From Bacilli bacterium (lineage in GTDB: Bacteria > Bacillota_I > Bacilli_A > RFN20 > CAG-826), in contig JAFXWB010000061.1 in the NCBI GenBank assembly GCA_017534425.1, forward strand, positions 1 through 32,476: a DNA stretch of 32,476 nt, read 5' to 3'. How positions within the stretch are numbered: the stretch's first letter is position 1; each line of letters opens with the position of its first letter. Shown in pieces: positions 7,365 through 19,426 of the stretch. A program made the translations under genes and the position numbers. The notes beneath the pieces are model-generated. The model was not told where the DNA came from and ran no database searches. It saw nothing but the letters and a program-made list of their open reading frames with translations.

Positions 7365-8612
7365 TTAAAGTTTAATGTCGCTCGCTTTGCACTTACGGCC
7401 TTCTTTAATTGAAATCTTGCCTAGTTTAATTGCTCCTACTGGACAAACGTGACCACAAAGTAAGCAACCAACACATTTATCTGTGTTACAACTTGGTTCG
7501 CGTTTTTCAGCGTTCCATTCAATTGCTTGGTGACCACCATCATAGCAACTAATATAGCAACGACCACACTTAATACATTTATCTAAATCAATGTCTGGAC
7601 GGACGATGTAATCTCTATTGAGATTTTCTGCTGGAATAATGTTTTTATTTGCAAGTCCAACTAAATCCTCAAGATGATCAACACCTTGTTCTTCCATGTA
7701 GTGCATTAAACCATTTTTGAGATCTTCAACAATTCTATAACCGTATTGCATAATAGCGGTTGTGACTTGAAGTGTTTTTGAACCAACAAGAATGAATTCT
7801 GCTGCATCTTCCCAAGTTTCAATTCCACCGATACCTGAAATTTCAAGATTTTCTAATCCTTCAGCTTGTCTCATTTGTTGGATGAAACGGAGTGCAACTG
7901 GTTTAACTGCTTTTCCAGAGTAACCTGAAATTGCAGATTTTCCATCAACAATTGGTAAACCAACTTTCTTATCTAAGTCAATATTGCATATTGATTTGAT
8001 TGTATTAATTGCCGCAATACCATCTGCTCCACCTTCTAAACAGGCTTTTGCAACTGGCACCATATCTGTAACATTTGGTGTCATTTTAGCCATCATCGGA
8101 AGAGAACTACCGCGTTTAACGGCTTGGCAATATCTCTTACAAAGTTCTGGATTAGTTCCAACATCACTACCCATTGCGTGTGATGTCATTTGTGGACATG
8201 AAAGATTCATTTCAATCATATCTGCCCCACATTCAGTAACTTTTCTAGCAAGATCTTCCCAGGTTTCTTCATCATTACCCATAATGGATGCGATTAATAT
8301 TTGATTTGGGAATTCTTCTTTTAGTTTTCTTAAATCGCGAAGATTTTCTTCAAGAGTATGTTCAGCGATTTGCTCCATGTTTTTAAAACCAACAAATGGA
8401 GTATTCTCTTTATTTAACTTATCGAAACGTGGAGAAACTTCATCAATGAAGTATGATTTTGGCCCGATTGTCTTAAAGACAACACCACCCCATCCTACTT
8501 CATATGCTTTCTTACACATGTCATAGCAGTTACCAACTGGTGAGGAAGATAAACAGAATGGATTTGGGAATTTGACACCTAAGAAGGTAATCGATAAATC
8601 TTTTTTAACCAT
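7365..8612 (-). CDS. preA: NAD-dependent dihydropyrimidine dehydrogenase, subunit PreA
   Basis: FMN-containing catalytic subunit that reduces uracil and thymine to their 5,6-dihydro forms with electrons passed from PreT. At 415 residues it is close to the E. coli PreA length. The dihydroorotate-dehydrogenase-like barrel carries [19 protein letters not shown], with the Cys that serves as general acid in the family. The C-terminus has two 4Fe-4S motifs, [11 protein letters not shown] and [12 protein letters not shown]. Start ATG lies 2 nt after the preT stop with AGGAGGT inside the end of preT, so the subunits are translationally coupled. Gut preTA operons are also known to inactivate 5-fluorouracil. 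A UUCG-loop terminator follows. Confidence 0.94.
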
Positions 8613-8614
8613 AA

Positions 8615-9844
8615 TTATTTACCTCCTATTGTTGCATCAATATAGAACGCAACTTCTTTACCTGTACGAACTCCACCAACAACTGTTTTGTCGTATGCAC
8701 TATGTGCAATGTCACCACAAACCCAAACTTTTGGATCTTTGGTAATGTATGGACGACCTTCATCAACTTCACCACGAACAAGGTCAATACCTAATCCAGC
8801 GACAATTGGAATCTGGCCAACAGCGAGAATAATTAAATCTGCTTCAACTTCAACTTTTGCCTTAATGACTCTATGTTCAAATGAAACTTTGTTTTCTTCA
8901 ACTTTAACTGGTACATAACCATCCATGATTGTGACACCAAGTTTTTGAGCACCTTCAAGTTCTTTCTTTGAAGCTTTGAATTCTTTAAATTCTTCATAAA
9001 CAACATCAGTAACGTTTTCAGCGCCTAATAGCTTAAGTGTTGAAACAACGTCCATTGCGACATCTCCACCACCAACAACTAATACGTTATTTGGAACTGA
9101 AACTTTGCCTGCTTTAGCTTTAACTTCTCTAAGAAAATCTACGGCTTTTACGACATTTTTGTTTCCATCAAACATTGGAAGCATCTTACCATATGAATAA
9201 CCTGGTGCGAGTAAAACGGCATCATGTTTTGCCTTAAGTTCTTCAAGAGGCATCTTATGACCAACTTCGCAATTTGTGTGGAATTTCACGCCAAATTTTT
9301 CAATTCTTTCAATTTCTTTATCAACAATATGGTTTGGTAAACGATACTCTGGAATAAGTCTAAGCATGCCGCCTAATTCCTTTTCCTTTTCATAAACTTC
9401 AACTGCGTAACCTAACATTGTTAAAGTTGCTGCAGCTTGAAGTGCGGCTGGACCTGAACCGACGATACCTACTGATTTACCATTAGCAGGTTTCTTTTCT
9501 AAAATGTCCATCTTACTAGTTTCTTCAAAGTCTGTGACATAACGTTGAATACGACCAATATCAATTGGACGATCAATACCACTTCTAGAGCATCCTTTTT
9601 GACAGTATTTTTCCGTTGGACAAACTCTAGCACAGACAGCACCAAGAGCATTATTCATTCTAATAGTTTCTGCTGCGCCTTTAAAATTACGGAATCTTAC
9701 TGAACGTATAAACTTGTCTGGATTAGTTCCGGCAGGACAAGCTTTTGAACATGGGGCGTCATGACAAAGCAAGCAACGTGATGCTTCTTCAGTCACGGTT
9801 AAAGAATCAAACCCCACATCTTCTTTTGTGTATTTTGAATCCAT
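8615..9844 (-). CDS. preT: NAD-dependent dihydropyrimidine dehydrogenase, subunit PreT
   Basis: Iron-sulfur flavoprotein that takes electrons from NADH and passes them to PreA; related to the GltD small subunit and the N-terminal half of mammalian DPD. The N-terminal cysteine-rich region has [16 protein letters not shown] and [15 protein letters not shown]. The FAD-binding motif [14 protein letters not shown] and the second nucleotide-binding motif [11 protein letters not shown] follow. I chose ATG 9844, with AGAAAGGA at about 9852-9859, giving 409 residues near the E. coli length of 412. The longer frame begins with TTG at 9874 with no ribosome-binding site. No strong promoter is seen in the short gap after the preceding terminator, so the promoter may overlap the terminator T-tract. 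Confidence 0.93.
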
Positions 9845-9893
9845 ATGAAAATCCTTTCTATAATATTTTAACAACCAAGCGCGTAGTAAAAAA

Positions 9894-9913
9894 GCACCAT
9901 TATTTTATGGTGC
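9894..9913 (-). terminator. Intrinsic terminator after the MFS_2 transporter
   Basis: A 7-bp GC-rich stem GCACCAT/ATGGTGC (9894-9900 with 9907-9913) has a 6-nt loop and is followed by UUUUUU on the minus strand. It separates the fusion-enzyme/transporter unit from preT-preA. Confidence 0.9.
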
Positions 9914-9939: not shown

Positions 9940-12000
9940 TTAATTACCTTTTGCTTGAAGTTTATCAGAAATCTTATTGAACATATTTGTTCTAATAGCG
10001 AGTGAATAAACATTCATCATAAATGGAACTGGAATGCATGCGAAGATAATCATTGAAGGAACGAAACGTTTAGAACCTAAATCTAATTCGTGTTGTTTCT
10101 CTAATTCTTCAAATGCTTTCTTAAACTTGTAATCTGCAAGAATTCCAAGGGATGGGACAAAACAAGCGATAATTGCAATTGCTTTAACACCAGCGCTTAA
10201 TTTAACTCCAGCAATTTTGAATTTCTTGAAGTCAAGTAAGACTGAAACAAGACCAAAGATTCCACCACTTAAGACCCAAAGAGCAACGTTTGCGAATGTA
10301 GAGTTCTTTTCAAGAACACGGTCTTCTTCATTACCAATGGAGTGAGCTTCATCAAACTTGTAATCAATGATTGCTTTTGTTTCAGCAATATCTTTTTCAA
10401 TCTTAACAATCTTAGCTCTAACGCCATCTAAGGATTTAAGTGCTAATTCTTTAGCAGATTCTTCTTCAAGATGTTCTGCAGCAATTTCGCCTTCTTTAAC
10501 TTTTAACATATAAACTGCACGTTTCTTTTCAAGTTTTGGAAGTCTACGTTCTGCGGACTCTTTAATGTCTAAATATGTTGTTCTTGCAGTGTAATTTTTT
10601 GGCATTAAGAAACAGAAGAAGAAACCTAAAATACAAGCAACAAAGACAATAAACGGAACCATTGAAACACCGTTTTTCCAGAAAACATCAACATTTTTGC
10701 CTAAGATTTCATCATACATTGTCTCGCCTGTTGGTGTTTGCCATAACTTAAGGTAGTTATAAACTAAGGATGAAGCGATAGCACCAACGATTGATGTTGC
10801 TAAAGCTTGAATTGCAAAGTACATAGCAGAGTGATTCTTGCCTGTAACTTCTTCTTCAACTGAAGCAATTGATGTTGGGATAAGATATGGCATCATAAAG
10901 AATGCTCCAATACCCCATGATCCGATAATTCCACCGATAGCACCAATAATGAGTTTTGGCATGAGTTGATCACCCCAGAACCATTGACTGCCTAAGCAGA
11001 ATGAGAAAATACAAATACCAAATGAAAGTAATGCACTTTGGAAAACTGGTCTAACACCAACTTTTTTACGAAGTCTATTAAACAAATAGAGCATTAATGG
11101 GACAGGTGCAAAAGCACATGTATTTAAGACTGCTGCCCAGCCTGCACCTAAGTTCATAACACCAGAAATTAATGTGTTTTGAGCAACCAAGAACATTTGA
11201 AGTCCAAAGAATGCAACGCAATTAACAAGTGTCCATTTCATAAATGGTTTAGATTCAAGTGTTAATTTAATTGAAACACCAATTGGAACAGCCTTTTCTT
11301 CATTAAATGTAACAGTTTCTCCAGCCGGAACTTTCTTTTGCATAAAGATTGGGAAAAGAATAGTAACCATTAATGGGGTTCCATATAAGGCAACTTGCCA
11401 AATTGGTAGACCAATTGCTTTAAAGATTGCTGGGATTGCTGCATAAACTAAAGCATAGCTTATTGTGTCGAAAACTGATTTATAAGCGGAAACACGAGCT
11501 CTTTGTGTTTGGTCTTCACAAACATCACTTAAAGCACCATAGAAGGTGATTAATGCAAGTGTATAAGATGCAAAGAAGATGATTGACCAGAAGAAAATCC
11601 AAATAGAGTTACCAATTTGTTGACCAAGACTTAAATCTCCTGATTTTCCAAAAATTGGAATCCAACAAAGAATAAATGAGATAACCATTGGGGCAACTGC
11701 TATTAAAATAGCAACCCAACGTTTTCCAGTCTTATTCTTTAAGTTATCAGTGAATGCTGCAAGTGGGACGTCAACAATACCATCGAAAACTCTTCCGATT
11801 GTCCAAAGAATCGGGAAGATAATTGTTGAAACAATAATTGTTCCACCATAACTCCAGAATCCGATGTCTGCTTTTAAACCGGTTGGAATAACGGCATCGG
11901 TAAAATATGCCATCATAAGAACCATTAATAAGTTTGGTCCAAAACCTGTTGCTGCAAACAAAACTTCTTTCCAACGTTTGTTAAGGGATACTTTTTTCAT
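9940..12000 (-). CDS. MelB-like (GPH/MFS_2) cation symporter with C-terminal coiled-coil and membrane extension
   Basis: A 686-residue membrane protein. Residues 1-468 form the 12-helix glycoside-pentoside-hexuronide (MFS_2) fold; RVFDGIVDVPLAAFTDN (70-86) contains the DxxxD pair (Asp73, Asp77) that binds Na+ in MelB. Family members usually import sugars, but MFSD2A in the same superfamily imports lysophospholipids. Unlike normal members (about 450-500 residues), residues 475-550 are a charged, probably coiled-coil segment. They are followed by about three extra membrane helices (568-590, 604-622, 646-668). The gene starts 3 nt after the acyl-ligase/acyltransferase fusion gene, with its ribosome-binding site in that gene's end, so co-expression is near certain. 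That neighbour favours a lipid-related substrate; a sugar is the main alternative. Confidence 0.8.
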   Translation of the reverse strand: MKKVSLNKRWKEVLFAATGFGPNLLMVLMMAYFTDAVIPTGLKADIGFWSYGGTIIVSTIIFPILWTIGRVFDGIVDVPLAAFTDNLKNKTGKRWVAILIAVAPMVISFILCWIPIFGKSGDLSLGQQIGNSIWIFFWSIIFFASYTLALITFYGALSDVCEDQTQRARVSAYKSVFDTISYALVYAAIPAIFKAIGLPIWQVALYGTPLMVTILFPIFMQKKVPAGETVTFNEEKAVPIGVSIKLTLESKPFMKWTLVNCVAFFGLQMFLVAQNTLISGVMNLGAGWAAVLNTCAFAPVPLMLYLFNRLRKKVGVRPVFQSALLSFGICIFSFCLGSQWFWGDQLMPKLIIGAIGGIIGSWGIGAFFMMPYLIPTSIASVEEEVTGKNHSAMYFAIQALATSIVGAIASSLVYNYLKLWQTPTGETMYDEILGKNVDVFWKNGVSMVPFIVFVACILGFFFCFLMPKNYTARTTYLDIKESAERRLPKLEKKRAVYMLKVKEGEIAAEHLEEESAKELALKSLDGVRAKIVKIEKDIAETKAIIDYKFDEAHSIGNEEDRVLEKNSTFANVALWVLSGGIFGLVSVLLDFKKFKIAGVKLSAGVKAIAIIACFVPSLGILADYKFKKAFEELEKQHELDLGSKRFVPSMIIFACIPVPFMMNVYSLAIRTNMFNKISDKLQAKGN

Positions 12001-12003
12001 CGA

Positions 12004-15000
12004 CTATTTCTCCTTCTTTTTAGAGTAATTTTGCGAAATACCTTGTAATTCTATCATTTTTTGTTGAAGAATTTCAGTAAATTTTGCGATATTTTCTTTA
12101 CTAGCACCGCGCTCTTCAAAATAATCACACGGATAAAGTGGATCACCAATAATGATGCGATTAGGTCTTAGAGGTCTTGTAACCTTTTGGAAAATCATTG
12201 GTATGACCGGAACATTATGTCTTAATGCGTGCATCGATATTCCTTGTTTCAAATCACCTTTAATAGTTCCGTCTTCTTCAATATGACCTTGAGGGAACAT
12301 AACAACACAGCCGTTGCCTTCAAGGATTTCATCGGTTTCTTTAAATGATTGAAAATCAAATCCCCCTTTAGCGTCTCTATCATATTCAATAACGCCCGCT
12401 CCTTTAGTCAAAGGATGTAAGAACTTTCCCCCTACTGCTTTCTTTAAAGAAAGAATTCTTAAACGTCTAGTTACCCAATAAAGATACATGTATGTAACAT
12501 CGAAAAATGATGTGTGATTTGGTGCCAAAATGACCTTTTCGCGGAAAGCTTTCTTAACTTTCTTTTTATCTCCAACGTATTTCTTAACGGCCCAAAAAAC
12601 TAAATAGCCAAATGGGAATCCAGTAATTTTAAATAAATCAGAAATGAAAAGCTTCCATGAAAAGATAGATTTTGTTTTATGCGTTTCAAAACAATAAAGT
12701 TGATGTTTAAGCTTTTTGATAGTTTCTTGTAAGTATTTGTTAACACGAATAATTTCATCGTTTGTTAATTCATCGCCTTTAACTAAATCACGAACATATA
12801 TCTTCTCGCCAACGTTATATTTAGCGCGCTTAAATAGACCATAATTTCCTTTAAAGTAGTACGGAATTATTGGTTTATTTGTCTCAAACGAAAGTCTAAT
12901 AGCGCTTGAAGAAAATCTTTCTATTTCGCCCACTTTATCTTCAAAACGGCCTTCTGGAAATATAGCAATTGTCTTGCCCTTATTAAGGTAAATCTTGGCT
13001 TTTCTCATTGCCTCAATGTTTGCAGGATCATCTTTCTTAACTTCGATGTTTTCCAAAACATTACAAAGATGTCTTAATGAACCGAATCTATAGATTGCTG
13101 GTCCTACAAACGTATGAACAACTCTAAAGAAATATTTATAAAGCAAAGAGATGTAATCAAATGTAGATGAGTGGTTTCCAATAATGATTGCACCACCTTT
13201 AAGTTTCTTAGATTCCTTCTTCGCTTTATGTGAAGCATAGAAGTATCTTGGAGTAATAAAGATGAGAAATGGAATAATGCCCGAAATCTTAATAAAGCAT
13301 CTTCCAAGGAAACGGAAAAAGTTAAAATTCCCCGCTTTTTCTTTAGTATTTTCATGTTTATTGCTTTGTTCGGATAGCTTAAGATCAATATTTTCTTTCT
13401 TTGCGGTTTCTTCAACTTTTATTGCAAAATGAAGTGGGGTCCTTGTTGTGTTAACGTTAATTTCAAGACCCATTCCAAAACGAGATTCAATCTTGCTAAC
13501 CAAATCAAAATAAGAAAGCGAATCACCACCTAGATCGATAAAGAAATCAGAGTCGAATTCAACTTTTTCATTAGCAGTAACTTCTGAGAATATTTTACTG
13601 ATTTCTTTAACGAGCTCTATATTGTAATTAACGACTTTTTCATTTGCTTCATCCATTGAAATTTCAAACGTCTTAATAGTTCCGTTATCTAAAAGATTTG
13701 CTAATTCGTTTCGCTTAATTTTAATGCCGTTAGCTTTTGGAAGTTCGTCATTTGTAATAAGGATTTTCTTAATTGAATATTTGACAAAACCTTCTTCATG
13801 AATAAGTTTTGACAACTCTTTACGAATAACATTATGCGGTATAGTTTTATCATATGATAAAAGAACAGTTAATTTATCTTTATAGTTAAGACAAACAACA
13901 TCACTTGCATAGTTAGCTTGAAGTGATTTTTCCATACGTGGGAGTGAATAGTTTTCACCATTTCTTCCAATGTAAAGTTCGTCTAATCGGCCTCTAATGT
14001 AATACTTTTTAAATTCATAATCACATAGGTCGTTTGTATAAACAGGTTCATAAATATTTCTTTCAACAAATTCTCCATTTTCAAACATCGCATGATAAGC
14101 AGAACTTGTCGTAACTAATAATTCTTTATGGCTTGAAACTTCATATTTATAGTTAGCGAAAGGATTACCAATCGTGGTCATTAATCTATCTTTTATTTTC
14201 TTGGTATTGCTAAATGAAGAAATGCCAATTTCAGTTGAACCATAACCGTTAACAAGAGGATAGCCAAGTCCGTTTATGATTCTTAATGTATCTTCTGAAA
14301 TAGCAGTGCCACCAGTTACACAGAATCCAAAAGATCTACCTAAAATTTGGTCTAAATACTTTTTGAATAAGTGATTCTGGACGAATTTTCTACCGGAATT
14401 CCCATGGTTTTTTTGGAATTTAATGGAAAATTTAAGTGCTTTTTCGAATTTTTCTTCAGCATTTCTTTCTTTAACTGCCTGCATCACTTTTCTAGAAATT
14501 AATTCCCAAAATAAAGGAACTGCTAACAAATGAGTTGGGTGAGTTAATAATGCTGCCTCTTTAACTTTATCTGCAGCGAGACTTTCAGGTAAAACGAAAG
14601 TTACGTTATGGAATGAGAACCATAAGAACGTCGCCGTAAATCCAAATATATGATAAAGAGGAAGAATTAAAAATTGCTTAATATAACCTTTGTATGTTGA
14701 ACATAAGTTTGGTGATCTTTTCAGCAAGTTAGGTATTTCTAATATTTGATTAGATAATTCTAAACCAGTATAGAGATAAATCTTAGATTTGCCGCTTGTG
14801 CCAGATGTAACAAGCACTGTACCATCAGCCCATTTCGGGCGTTCAATTGCTTTCTCTTCGGTAATCTCGAACGGATTTATTTTTTCTACACCAATCTCTT
14901 TATTCGTGACTGCATAATTACTTTGTAATTGGTTTAAAATTTCTTCATTTTCTTCTTTTGATGCAGCCGTAGAAAGTAGGACTGGAATATAGCCCGCCAT

Positions 15001-15306
15001 TAAAAGTCCATAATACGAAGAAACCCATTCAGGAGAATTATCTAAAAGAAGACCAACATATTTAGCGTTGTCGCCAATGGTATTTTGGAAGTGGTTCGCA
15101 AAACATTCGATTTGTTTTTTAACTTCACCATAAGTTATATTCGTGACTTCCCCATTTTTGCAAACATTAAAGAACGTAAAATCTGGATGATAGAAAGTTG
15201 TTCTAAAAATGTCTTGCATCGTTTTGCGAGAACATGAAAGCCTTTCGTGGTTAAATGCTACTCTTTTAGCAAGTTTTTTCTTATTTAATCGTTCTTCTTT
15301 AATCAT
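12004..15306 (-). CDS. Fusion of acyl-AMP ligase, acyl carrier domain and two PlsC-type acyltransferases
   Basis: An 1100-residue multidomain enzyme. Residues 1-545 are an ANL adenylation domain: TSGTSGKSK (167-175), YGSTE (355-359), RGRLDE (438-443) and a C-terminal NGIKIKR. Residues 560-635 form a carrier domain with DLGGDSL, Ser596 being the expected phosphopantetheine site. After a hydrophobic stretch (670-690) comes PlsC domain 1 with NHSSTFD (711-717) and FPEG (783-786). PlsC domain 2 has NHTSFFD (930-936) and FPQG (1004-1007). By family knowledge it should activate a fatty acid, hold it on its own carrier and acylate a glycerolipid at the membrane, like Aas (acyltransferase plus ligase) but in a different order and with added domains. 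The ATG has no clear Shine-Dalgarno sequence. It is followed by the MFS_2 transporter. Confidence 0.85.
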   Translation of the reverse strand: MIKEERLNKKKLAKRVAFNHERLSCSRKTMQDIFRTTFYHPDFTFFNVCKNGEVTNITYGEVKKQIECFANHFQNTIGDNAKYVGLLLDNSPEWVSSYYGLLMAGYIPVLLSTAASKEENEEILNQLQSNYAVTNKEIGVEKINPFEITEEKAIERPKWADGTVLVTSGTSGKSKIYLYTGLELSNQILEIPNLLKRSPNLCSTYKGYIKQFLILPLYHIFGFTATFLWFSFHNVTFVLPESLAADKVKEAALLTHPTHLLAVPLFWELISRKVMQAVKERNAEEKFEKALKFSIKFQKNHGNSGRKFVQNHLFKKYLDQILGRSFGFCVTGGTAISEDTLRIINGLGYPLVNGYGSTEIGISSFSNTKKIKDRLMTTIGNPFANYKYEVSSHKELLVTTSSAYHAMFENGEFVERNIYEPVYTNDLCDYEFKKYYIRGRLDELYIGRNGENYSLPRMEKSLQANYASDVVCLNYKDKLTVLLSYDKTIPHNVIRKELSKLIHEEGFVKYSIKKILITNDELPKANGIKIKRNELANLLDNGTIKTFEISMDEANEKVVNYNIELVKEISKIFSEVTANEKVEFDSDFFIDLGGDSLSYFDLVSKIESRFGMGLEINVNTTRTPLHFAIKVEETAKKENIDLKLSEQSNKHENTKEKAGNFNFFRFLGRCFIKISGIIPFLIFITPRYFYASHKAKKESKKLKGGAIIIGNHSSTFDYISLLYKYFFRVVHTFVGPAIYRFGSLRHLCNVLENIEVKKDDPANIEAMRKAKIYLNKGKTIAIFPEGRFEDKVGEIERFSSSAIRLSFETNKPIIPYYFKGNYGLFKRAKYNVGEKIYVRDLVKGDELTNDEIIRVNKYLQETIKKLKHQLYCFETHKTKSIFSWKLFISDLFKITGFPFGYLVFWAVKKYVGDKKKVKKAFREKVILAPNHTSFFDVTYMYLYWVTRRLRILSLKKAVGGKFLHPLTKGAGVIEYDRDAKGGFDFQSFKETDEILEGNGCVVMFPQGHIEEDGTIKGDLKQGISMHALRHNVPVIPMIFQKVTRPLRPNRIIIGDPLYPCDYFEERGASKENIAKFTEILQQKMIELQGISQNYSKKKEK

Positions 15307-15318
15307 TTTATAAAAAGA

Positions 15319-15338
15319 TACTTATATAAATATAAGTA
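15319..15338 (-). terminator. AT-rich hairpin between the nucleotidyltransferase and the fusion gene
   Basis: TACTTATA (15319-15326) and TATAAGTA (15331-15338) form an 8-bp AU-rich stem followed by UCUUUUUAU on the minus strand. It is a weak terminator at best and ends only 12 nt before the ATG at 15306, so it lies in the presumed leader of the fusion gene. TTTCAA and TATAAG 16 nt apart across this hairpin could be a weak promoter. Confidence 0.4.
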
Positions 15339-15353
15339 CCTATTGAAAGTTTT

Positions 15354-16369: not shown

Positions 16370-17049
16370 AATCTTTGTTCTTCTTCTATTGTTAGTTCTC
16401 TATGTTCACCAAGTTTAAGATCATTAACTGTTAAGAAAGCAAATGCTTTTCTATTTAAACTCAAGACATTATATCCAAACTTTTTGAACATTCTTTTAAC
16501 CTGATGAAACTTCCCTTGATGAAGTGTTAGCTCAGCGTGCTTATCATTAATAATGATTAGCTCTGCAGGAAATGTTGGCTCACCATCCAGTTCAATTCCT
16601 TGTTTGAACGCTTCCACTAATTTTGAATCTAGTTTCTTATCTACTTCAACTTCATAGACTTTATCAACGTGGTATTTTGGGCTTATTAATTTATGGGATA
16701 AATCGCCATCATTTGTTAATAACAAAGCTCCAGTTGTATCAACATCTAATCTTCCAACAGGATTTAGCTTTGCAAATGCATACTCTGGAATTAAATCTGT
16801 TACTGGAGGATAAACATTATCAATTGCCGCAGAGACATATCCTTTAGGTTTATTGAGCAAGACATAATAAAACTCTTTGTATTTAACTTCTAAATCATCA
16901 AAAAGAACAACGTCTTTAGTTTCGTCAACGTTAAAGGAGTCACTTTTCACGACTTCACCATTAACTTTAACTCTTTTATCTTTGATAAAGCGTTTAACTT
17001 CAGATCTAGTTCCAACACCTGAGTTTGCTAAAAATTTATCTAATCTCAT
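16357..17049 (-). CDS. rsuA: RsuA/RluB-family 16S or 23S rRNA pseudouridine synthase
   Basis: Isomerises a specific uridine in rRNA to pseudouridine. The 230 residues comprise an N-terminal S4 RNA-binding domain (MRLDKFLANSGVGTRSEVKR) and the synthase domain. The latter has GRLDVDTTGALLLTNDG with the catalytic Asp, and LHQGKFHQVKRMF, typical of RsuA (16S U516). Length and the short C-terminus fit RsuA better than RluB, but site specificity cannot be fixed by eye. The ATG overlaps the GH2 stop in an ATGA tetranucleotide, so the two genes are translationally coupled although functionally unrelated. Confidence 0.9.
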   Translation of the reverse strand: MRLDKFLANSGVGTRSEVKRFIKDKRVKVNGEVVKSDSFNVDETKDVVLFDDLEVKYKEFYYVLLNKPKGYVSAAIDNVYPPVTDLIPEYAFAKLNPVGRLDVDTTGALLLTNDGDLSHKLISPKYHVDKVYEVEVDKKLDSKLVEAFKQGIELDGEPTFPAELIIINDKHAELTLHQGKFHQVKRMFKKFGYNVLSLNRKAFAFLTVNDLKLGEHRELTIEEEQRLKSL

Positions 17050-19373
17050 TTAACTTTAATGTCGATGCTCTTCTCAATGTCATCCATTTTAATTGTTACT
17101 TTTGCGTTTCCAGCTTTATTTAAAGAATTGATATAAAGTGTTAATTGTCCACCTAATAAGGTTTGTTGTTTTGGACCCACTAATTGGATTGGACCATCGG
17201 TTTCAACTTCCACAATTCTTTGAGAATATTGCATTAATGACTTGTGGGAATCAACATGTCTTAACGTTATCTTTAATGTGTCATAAGTATCTTCATTTGC
17301 AAGTTCAGTTTTATTTGGAATTACTTCTAAATCGAATTCATTTGATGGACCAAGTTCTACTTCTTTAACTTTGTTACCATCTTTAAACCCGACAAATTTA
17401 TATGTCTTAGCCATTCCACCCCAGCTTCCAACATATTTGTTCCAATAACCTACCAAATCAGTAAAGCTTACTTTGTATCTAAACATCATCCATCCTAAAT
17501 AAATCTTTGTTGATAATGGAAGATGGTTAAATCCATGCATAGCAGCATATGAGAATGTTCTAGCAATCTTTGGATAACTCTTCTTTGGGAATTTTTCTTC
17601 TTTGAATGTTTCTCCAACTATGTCATCCAATAAAATTGGAGGATGTTTTAGATATTTGAATTTATCGTTCTTTGGTTGTAACCTCTTAACAAATTCATCG
17701 CTCTTATAAACTTCTACGTAATCACAGTTTGTAGCAATATAAATATCATTAAAGATTGCCTCTGGAACATCTCCTGGTTTCATATTTGATAAAACTTCTA
17801 AAACTGGGTTCTTATCTTGTTGAGAAGCATAAATTGCCGCCGTGTATTTCTTGTTTCGATATAAATCTAAAACGCCGTGTGGGCAAATGTGGTCTCCACT
17901 ACCGAAGTCTGTGTGGCTGTGGTAATCAACAAAACACCAACCAATTGCACCAGCTGTGTTTTCATATTTGAAATTATCATCAATTACTTTAGCGTGTCTT
18001 AAAGCAACCTCGACACGTTTCCCTTCATCACTGTTCTCCTTAACTGGATCCATATGACCCATGTATTCGGTAATTAGTAATGGATGATTTTGAGTCTTAA
18101 TTGTTTTAGGTTTTGATAAACCAATATTTAATGAATCACAAACGAAATCGTTATAACCATAAATATCTTCTAAAAGCTCACTATTTTTGAAGTTTCTGAC
18201 ACCGATGGTTTGGCGATATTTATCCAATTTATGCGCGATTTCATTGGTTTTTTCGTATAATTCGTGGTCATCAACTGATTCATCAATACGAACACCGTGC
18301 GCAATTATACATGGGTGGTTTCTTTCTTTTAAAACCATTCTTCTAGCATTTTCAACACACTCTTTTCTCCATGTTTCGCTTTGTCCAATGTGCTGCCAAC
18401 CTGGAATTTCATTAACAACAAGTAAACCAAGTTCATCACATTTATTTAAGAAGTGCTCGCTTTGAGAATAATGGCTTGTTCTGACGACATTAACTCCTAA
18501 CTCATTCTTAAGAATGAGAGCATCATCCTCTTGGAGTGATTTAGATGCTGCGTAACCCATGTATGGATAGCCTTGATGTCTGTTTAAACCAACTAATTTA
18601 ACTTTCTTTCCATTTAAGAAGAAACCTTGGTTAGTGAATCTTGTTTCTCTAAATGCAAAGCGATTTTCATACACTTCTGTCTCGCCATTTAAAGTTACGA
18701 TTGTGCGAAGTTTATATAAAGTTGGATTGTCTAAATCCCACAATTTAAAGTCTTCAAGTTTATAAGAATTACCAGAAAAACGTGCTTTTTCCTGATTATT
18801 TTCATCAAATACTACTTTTTCTACGCTTATTTCGTCTTTTCCGTTTACATCATAAATAACATCAATGTTCCCGTTTAAGTCCCCATGAATATAGAAGTTA
18901 TTTAAGTATGTTGGAAGATGTGATTCTAGCCAAACTTCTCTATAGATTCCTGAGAAGGATAAGTAGTCAATTGCAAATCCAAATGGAGGGTAATCTTTAT
19001 TTTCTCTAGAATCAATTACCATCACTAAACGGTTATTGGATTTCTTAACATACTTTGTAATATCAATATCTACTGGTAAATAGCCTGAATAGAATTGGCC
19101 CAGTTTTTCTCCGTTAAGATAAATGTCAGCGAGAAACATAAATCCCTCAAAATGAAGGATATAAACTCGGTTCTCGTTATAGTTATCTACGTCAAATAGC
19201 TTCTCGTAAGTGAAAATTCCCTGATAACTTTTCTCAGAAAAGTAGTTATAAGGGATTTCTACAGGGTTATGAGGAATGTTTACCTCGCTTGCCTCTAATT
19301 TATCGAGCTTAGTTAAATACGCGTCTTTAAAGCCCTTTATAAAGGACCAAGAGAAGTTTAGAGATTGTTTCAT
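17046..19373 (-). CDS. Glycoside hydrolase family 2 protein (beta-galactosidase/glucuronidase-like)
   Basis: A 775-residue cytosolic GH2 enzyme with no signal peptide: N-terminal jelly-roll (GYLPVDIDITKYV, GIYREVWLE), an Ig-like domain, the TIM barrel beginning KLVGLNRHQGYPYMG, and C-terminal beta domains. The nucleophile Glu is seen in LLITEYMGH. The acid/base region reads HGVRIDESVDD where clan GH-A normally has Asn-Glu (GNE, or RINES in related GH2), so Asn is replaced by Asp before the Glu. I prefer ATG 19373, well spaced from AGGTGA, to the ATG 9 nt upstream, which is too close. The substrate is unknown. A TTGATA -35 (19417-19422) overlaps the T-tract of the preceding terminator; the -10 is unclear. 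Confidence 0.88.
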   Translation of the reverse strand: MKQSLNFSWSFIKGFKDAYLTKLDKLEASEVNIPHNPVEIPYNYFSEKSYQGIFTYEKLFDVDNYNENRVYILHFEGFMFLADIYLNGEKLGQFYSGYLPVDIDITKYVKKSNNRLVMVIDSRENKDYPPFGFAIDYLSFSGIYREVWLESHLPTYLNNFYIHGDLNGNIDVIYDVNGKDEISVEKVVFDENNQEKARFSGNSYKLEDFKLWDLDNPTLYKLRTIVTLNGETEVYENRFAFRETRFTNQGFFLNGKKVKLVGLNRHQGYPYMGYAASKSLQEDDALILKNELGVNVVRTSHYSQSEHFLNKCDELGLLVVNEIPGWQHIGQSETWRKECVENARRMVLKERNHPCIIAHGVRIDESVDDHELYEKTNEIAHKLDKYRQTIGVRNFKNSELLEDIYGYNDFVCDSLNIGLSKPKTIKTQNHPLLITEYMGHMDPVKENSDEGKRVEVALRHAKVIDDNFKYENTAGAIGWCFVDYHSHTDFGSGDHICPHGVLDLYRNKKYTAAIYASQQDKNPVLEVLSNMKPGDVPEAIFNDIYIATNCDYVEVYKSDEFVKRLQPKNDKFKYLKHPPILLDDIVGETFKEEKFPKKSYPKIARTFSYAAMHGFNHLPLSTKIYLGWMMFRYKVSFTDLVGYWNKYVGSWGGMAKTYKFVGFKDGNKVKEVELGPSNEFDLEVIPNKTELANEDTYDTLKITLRHVDSHKSLMQYSQRIVEVETDGPIQLVGPKQQTLLGGQLTLYINSLNKAGNAKVTIKMDDIEKSIDIKVK

Positions 19374-19426
19374 ATCATTCACCTACAGATAACAAATCTA
19401 TTTTACTATCGTTTTAAGTATCAAAA

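Follow-up and report, generated by a model that had tools for sequence, protein, structure and literature searches.

The window analysed here, a stretch of 32,476 nucleotides forming contig JAFXWB010000061.1 of a Bacilli bacterium (assembly GCA_017534425.1), carries on its reverse strand a gene pair made of a large fusion enzyme and a membrane transporter. The features of the pair and its borders are the following:

15316..15341, minus strand: AU-rich hairpin with T-run, separating the fusion gene from the nucleotidyltransferase gene upstream of it (-9.7 kcal/mol, z -4.4)
12004..15306, minus strand: 1100-aa fusion ORF, with an AMP-forming ligase, an ACP and two PlsC-type acyltransferase domains (ORF list, Pfam)
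13627..15306, minus strand: adenylate-forming ligase domain, residues ~1-560, with invariant ANL residues
13369..13611, minus strand: built-in acyl carrier protein, residues ~566-646, with phosphopantetheine Ser596 in GGDSL
12667..13317, minus strand: first PlsC domain, with HSSTFD (712) and FPEGRF (783)
12037..12666, minus strand: second PlsC domain, with HTSFFD (931) and FPQGHI (1004)
9940..12000, minus strand: 686-aa MFS_2 (GPH) transporter ORF (ORF list, Pfam)
9888..9913, minus strand: intrinsic terminator closing the pair, GCACCAT-AAAATA-ATGGTGC-TTTTTT (-15.6 kcal/mol, z -5.4)

The original prediction described a fusion enzyme followed 3 nt later by an MFS_2 transporter, the two being closed by their own terminator, and all of this held. 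Only TCG lies between the fusion stop TAG and the transporter ATG, with AAGGAG just upstream of that start. The transporter matches Pfam MFS_2 (PF13347) at 84.4 bits against a cut-off of 27 (E 8e-24), and the strong hairpin is read from 9913 to 9888 on the minus strand. The second hairpin, at 15316..15341, is probably the terminator of the nucleotidyltransferase gene.

Within the fusion, Pfam recognizes AMP-binding (40-391), PP-binding (569-615) and, twice, Acyltransferase (PlsC), so that the predicted fusion enzyme proves to have two PlsC domains. The ligase motifs are intact, namely TSGTSGKSK (167), YGSTE (355), D426, R440 and K529, and T170, G356, E359, D426, R440 and K529 are invariant in 40 relatives. 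The sequence marks expected of an acyl-ACP synthetase of the ANL type, the A10 lysine K529 and the holo-ACP serine S596, are likewise present without exception (40/40). Both PlsC domains, a type that takes acyl-ACP or acyl-CoA, retain their HX4D boxes; the second reads FPQGH where most relatives have an FPEGHI-like motif, and this Q is common to the fusion and two horse-gut relatives (L128, L129). The ligase-ACP part was modelled with confidence (pLDDT 88) and folds like A-PCP didomains and MenE-like ligases. The folds nearest to the ligase are generic A-PCP, MenE-type and similar ligases, and a palmitoyl-adenylate FAAL is among the matches. Such matches being generic, a long-chain fatty acid as the ligase substrate is inferred from context, without biochemistry: it is proposed because of the PlsC domains, the FakAB/PlsX partners and the missing FASII described below. 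None of the listed NCBIfam equivalogs reaches its cut-off for the fusion, and a search for related loci with the whole fusion as query returned nothing. Among the other family members found, none is fused, and the fusion is seen only in the window.

We searched 84,980 species genomes with only the transporter family as query and obtained 80 loci, 73 of them with a readable transporter ORF. We counted as lipid-assimilation genes those for AMP-ligase-ACP, PlsC, FakA/FakB, LRAT, PlsX and hydrolase. At least one lies within 1.5 kb of the transporter in 67 of the 73 loci, against 4 of 22 loci of generic MFS_2 transporters from the same order (Fisher p 6e-11). The 73 loci are partly from close relatives and are therefore not a count of independent events. 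Pfam searches on representatives identified the partners as FakA, DegV/FakB, PlsX, LRAT, PPTase, ACP, a second AMP-ligase and alpha/beta hydrolases. The gene preceding the transporter is a ligase-ACP in 37 cases and FakB in 14, and the one after it PlsC in 39 and FakA in 16. Most loci form a conserved operon, and two layouts dominate. Type I runs ligase-ACP, transporter, PlsC, PlsC, second ligase, ACP and LRAT; type II runs ligase-ACP, PlsC, PlsC, second ligase, ACP, (LRAT) and hydrolase, then FakB, transporter, FakA and hydrolase. The window pair, with ligase-ACP and both PlsC domains fused and only the transporter beside them, is the most condensed form of the module that we saw; LRAT had no match in the window genome.

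The records with such loci span Bacilli, Clostridia, Lachnospiraceae, Oscillospiraceae, Coriobacteriia and Spirochaetales (Spirochaetes MAGs). Conservation of the neighbours, proposed as a check in the original prediction, is thus passed, the lipid-gene neighbourhood being strongly conserved across lineages. Chance adjacency of the pair was considered and is rejected, 67/73 against 4/22 being far beyond chance. Lipid genes are absent nearby in five transporter loci (L137, L169 and the distant L176, L189 and L202), and in L169 the transporter adjoins htpG on a short contig. Separately, three generic MFS_2 transporters of the order (L044, L045, L054) have a FakB-like gene within 1.5 kb, and it is possible that other GPH members are likewise tied to fatty acids.

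The transporter has a core of residues ~1-470, followed by an extension of ~215 residues (window 9943-10590), whose scanned part matches no Pfam family. This charged coiled coil with predicted membrane helices is present in type I relatives and missing in type II. The predicted model (pLDDT 73) is about as close to MFSD2A as to MelB (Foldseek E 6e-8 and 1e-7; VIA Z 28.7 and 28.2), while SotB and MelB match it as well as or better than MFSD2A, so the predicted structure gives no verdict between lipid and sugar. Sequence searches of the PDB with the transporter, as single sequence or profile, found nothing relevant. Of the MelB cation site, aspartates D55 and D59 of helix II are kept in 74/74 family members, and T121 (MelB numbering) in almost all. 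The galactoside-site residues are replaced in nearly all 74 (D19 by N, D124 by L/M, W128 by Y). These residues vary outside MelB orthologues (PMC8329300), and their loss alone therefore excludes only MelB-type galactoside binding. At the position of MelB K377 none of the 74 has Lys, most having S/G, whereas K377 is mostly kept in generic GPH proteins of the order and in E. coli YicJ/YihP. We take this position to be that of MFSD2A Lys436, which is implicated in contact with the phosphate headgroup (PMC5862976); the equivalent is missing, and an MFSD2A-like binding mode is therefore unsupported.

In a maximum-likelihood tree, the transporter family forms one clade (100/100) apart from MelB, YicJ, YihP and the generic GPH proteins of the order, although long branches leave the deeper joins unsure. 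Clustering with sugar symporters, which would have refuted the original prediction, was accordingly not seen. The kinship with MFSD2A that it invoked is unsupported, MelB being an equally good structural match and the headgroup lysine missing. Distant relatives of the transporter in Anaerolineaceae (L189:2143-7007, L202:1704-8093) lie beside ROK, URO-D-type and amidohydrolase genes, which hints that the lipid clade arose from a small-molecule transporter.

The pair sits between preT and the nucleotidyltransferase gene. In the sister genome G113, the counterparts of these two genes (82% and 80% identical, respectively) lie 125 bp apart, and the gap between them is empty. The contig can be placed in this genus, since its RpoA is 91% identical to that of G113; contamination, considered because the genome is listed at 6%, is rejected on this RpoA match and the synteny with G113. 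The transporters closest in sequence are found in other genera (G184, 60%; G186, 55%), and the same-genus G145 transporter is 40% identical. In the tree, the window transporter groups with those of horse-faeces Bacilli (L127-L129) in a four-member branch supported at 100/100. Joint horizontal gain of both genes is the simplest reading, loss of the pair in G113 remaining possible. Close species of the genus do without the transporter, so the lifestyle does not depend on the module.

Several other features of this region were recorded. The PreA/PreT-type dihydropyrimidine dehydrogenase pair (window 7365-9874) is kept at the same place in G113. A GH2 gene (17046-19382), 1.8 kb from the pair, lies between rplQ and a pseudouridine synthase gene; it is absent at that place in G113, where a LemA gene and another ORF are found instead. 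Many relatives have a stand-alone tandem PlsC gene (~430 aa) beside the ribosomal-protein operon, ~14 kb from rpoA, for example L208:846-2150 next to S10, with matching places in G097, G118, G142, G145, G188 and G012. In the window genome this gene would fall just past the contig end, and no double-PlsC ORF of the stand-alone type was found elsewhere in G000.

Loss of fatty-acid synthesis accompanies the module. A joint E. coli query (PlsX, FabH, FabD, FabG, AcpP, FabF, FabZ, FabI, AccA, PlsY) against 16 genomes of the order, including the window genome, matched PlsX, PlsY, ACP and short-chain dehydrogenases, and in these same genomes FabH, FabD, FabF, FabZ, FabI and AccA had no match. The window genome lacks the ketoacyl-synthase domain PF00109, as do 186 of the 196 genomes sampled from the order (it is present in 10); 14/14 controls were matched, and at a stricter threshold 10/14, the bacterial ones. 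It is also absent in 28 of the 31 carriers from the transporter-family search. Among 245 Clostridia-class genomes, 176 have a ketoacyl synthase, that is 0/7 carriers against 176/238 others (Fisher p 1.1e-4), a test uncorrected for relatedness and resting on few carriers that are not phylogenetically independent. The window organism is thus probably unable to make its own fatty acids, an inference from sequence alone. Its genome has two FakA, several FakB-like proteins, PlsX, one PlsY match and six further PlsC-type ORFs, and the FakAB-PlsX-PlsY-PlsC route is present, whole or in large part. As this classic exogenous fatty-acid route is already there, the pair must add something to it.

We propose that the pair is probably a condensed and horizontally movable module for the assimilation of exogenous lipid in bacteria that lack de novo fatty-acid synthesis, on genomic evidence only and with neither substrate nor transport direction shown. 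What is shown are the domains, the intact motifs, the conserved neighbourhood, the association with FASII loss and the two-gene insertion. By inference, the cation-coupled MFS_2 protein would carry an amphiphile, be it a lysolipid, a fatty acid or another acylglycerol, inward across the membrane. A free long-chain fatty acid would be adenylated by the ligase domain and loaded onto the built-in ACP, and the two PlsC domains would then acylate a glycerol-phosphate-type or lyso-lipid acceptor at one position or at both, so producing a diacyl lipid for the membrane. Because the partnership recurs across many unrelated FASII-less gut bacteria, it probably represents an undescribed uptake of ready-made host or diet lipids. 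The original prediction of a scavenging module analogous to LplT-Aas is therefore supported by genomics at the module level; its fatty-acid half gains from the FakA/FakB/PlsX partners and the FASII loss in carriers, while its lysophospholipid cargo remains a guess. A bolder reading, which we hold to be less likely than not, is that of a widespread undescribed operon with which FASII-less gut bacteria build their membranes from host or dietary lysolipids or acylglycerols. A GPH-family importer would here pass its cargo to the ligase-ACP-double-PlsC enzyme, with activation and acylation in one chain.

Among the other explanations, the nearest to ours is that the transporter specifically imports lysophospholipids, as a true counterpart of LplT or MFSD2A, and that the PlsC domains re-acylate them, both transport and acylation being inferred. 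The order of enzyme then transporter is that of E. coli aas-lplT, the LRAT and hydrolase partners fit phospholipid turnover, and the fold is common to the transporter and MFSD2A. However, MelB and SotB are structural matches at least as good, the K436 equivalent is lost in 74/74, and two PlsC domains exceed the needs of lysolipid re-acylation. In our judgment this narrower version is possible but clearly short of an even chance. The transporter could instead work outward, flipping a special lipid that the ligase, ACP and PlsC enzymes produce. In favour, the full operon's two ligases, two ACPs, two acyltransferases and LRAT exceed simple phospholipid acylation, and MFS lipid exporters are known (SPNS2, MFSD2B; PMC5862976). 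This is unlikely, as many loci have FakA/FakB immediately beside the transporter and the carriers are without fatty-acid synthesis, both pointing to intake, and the conserved cation-site aspartates suit a symporter.

Least plausible is a transporter of sugar or another small solute, feeding the GH2 enzyme close by or metabolism at large and placed here incidentally. Membership of the MFS_2/GPH family, the proximity of the GH2 gene and the Anaerolineaceae outgroup members with their non-lipid neighbours speak for it. Against it, lipid genes accompany the transporter in 67/73 loci, the sugar-site residues are lost, and GH2 homologues occur in only 2/80 loci, with none among the neighbours in G113. 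Supply of the GH2 enzyme, the other result named as refuting the original prediction, is thus argued against. Finally, the 1100-aa fusion might be a sequencing or assembly artefact, with two ORFs in nature. No other relative is fused, the neighbouring genes of relatives usually overlap by a few bases in a different frame, and the junction is A-rich. We nevertheless doubt this, since the frame is single and open, a linker is present and there is no obvious relic of a stop or start signal; the remaining argument is in any case independent of the fusion.

The source of membrane lipids in uncultured gut bacteria that lack fatty-acid synthesis is a gap in the field. If assimilation of exogenous lipid is indeed its role, the operon is a marker for this across several lineages, and its transporter is a candidate for a bacterial lipid carrier with the MFSD2A/MelB fold. 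The module suggests that carriers compete for host and dietary lipids, and it offers a hint for culture, namely to feed lysolipids or fatty acids.

Neither this operon nor any LRAT-containing lipid operon of bacteria turned up in a search of the open-access literature, which is weak evidence of novelty. With MFSD2A and MelB (GPH, MFS_2) the window transporter has in common the fold and the cation-site D55/D59; it differs by the replacement of D19, D124, W128 and K377, by its separate 100/100 clade and by the ~215-residue extra C-terminal region found in the window protein and several relatives. The E. coli LplT-Aas system (PMC11416262; NC_000913 aas-lplT) similarly combines a PlsC-type acyltransferase and an acyl-ACP-synthetase-type ligase in one enzyme gene, placed directly before an MFS transporter gene in the same order. 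However, the domain order is ligase-ACP-PlsC-PlsC in the window and PlsC-ligase in Aas, the window enzyme adds its own ACP and a second PlsC domain, and likeness to Aas is confined to PlsC (~24% identity, E 3e-5). The transporter has no significant similarity to LplT, belonging instead to MFS_2. The fusion also misses the equivalog cut-offs of the Aas / PRK08633 group, reaching 90.4 of 1221 bits in one case and 29.3 of 886 bits in the other. The pair is thus not a member of LplT-Aas: its transporter is no LplT and its enzyme scores far below the Aas equivalogs.

The MFS-PlsC-ligase fusions of PRK08633 (NCBIfam, acyl-[ACP]--phospholipid O-acyltransferase) also join an acyltransferase and a ligase with a transporter, but differ in domain order, and the window fusion scores only 90 bits where 1221 are required. 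These fusions carry an LplT-type transporter. The FakAB-PlsX route of Bacillota has the same purpose, the use of outside fatty acids; it is not known to require a transporter, and it uses acyl-phosphate chemistry where the window enzyme would use an adenylate and its built-in ACP. We picture a module that may work like LplT-Aas, though its transporter is unrelated and its enzyme rearranged, beside the FakAB-PlsX-PlsY-PlsC route, whose FakA, FakB and PlsX genes share operons with transporters and ligase-ACPs of the window type.
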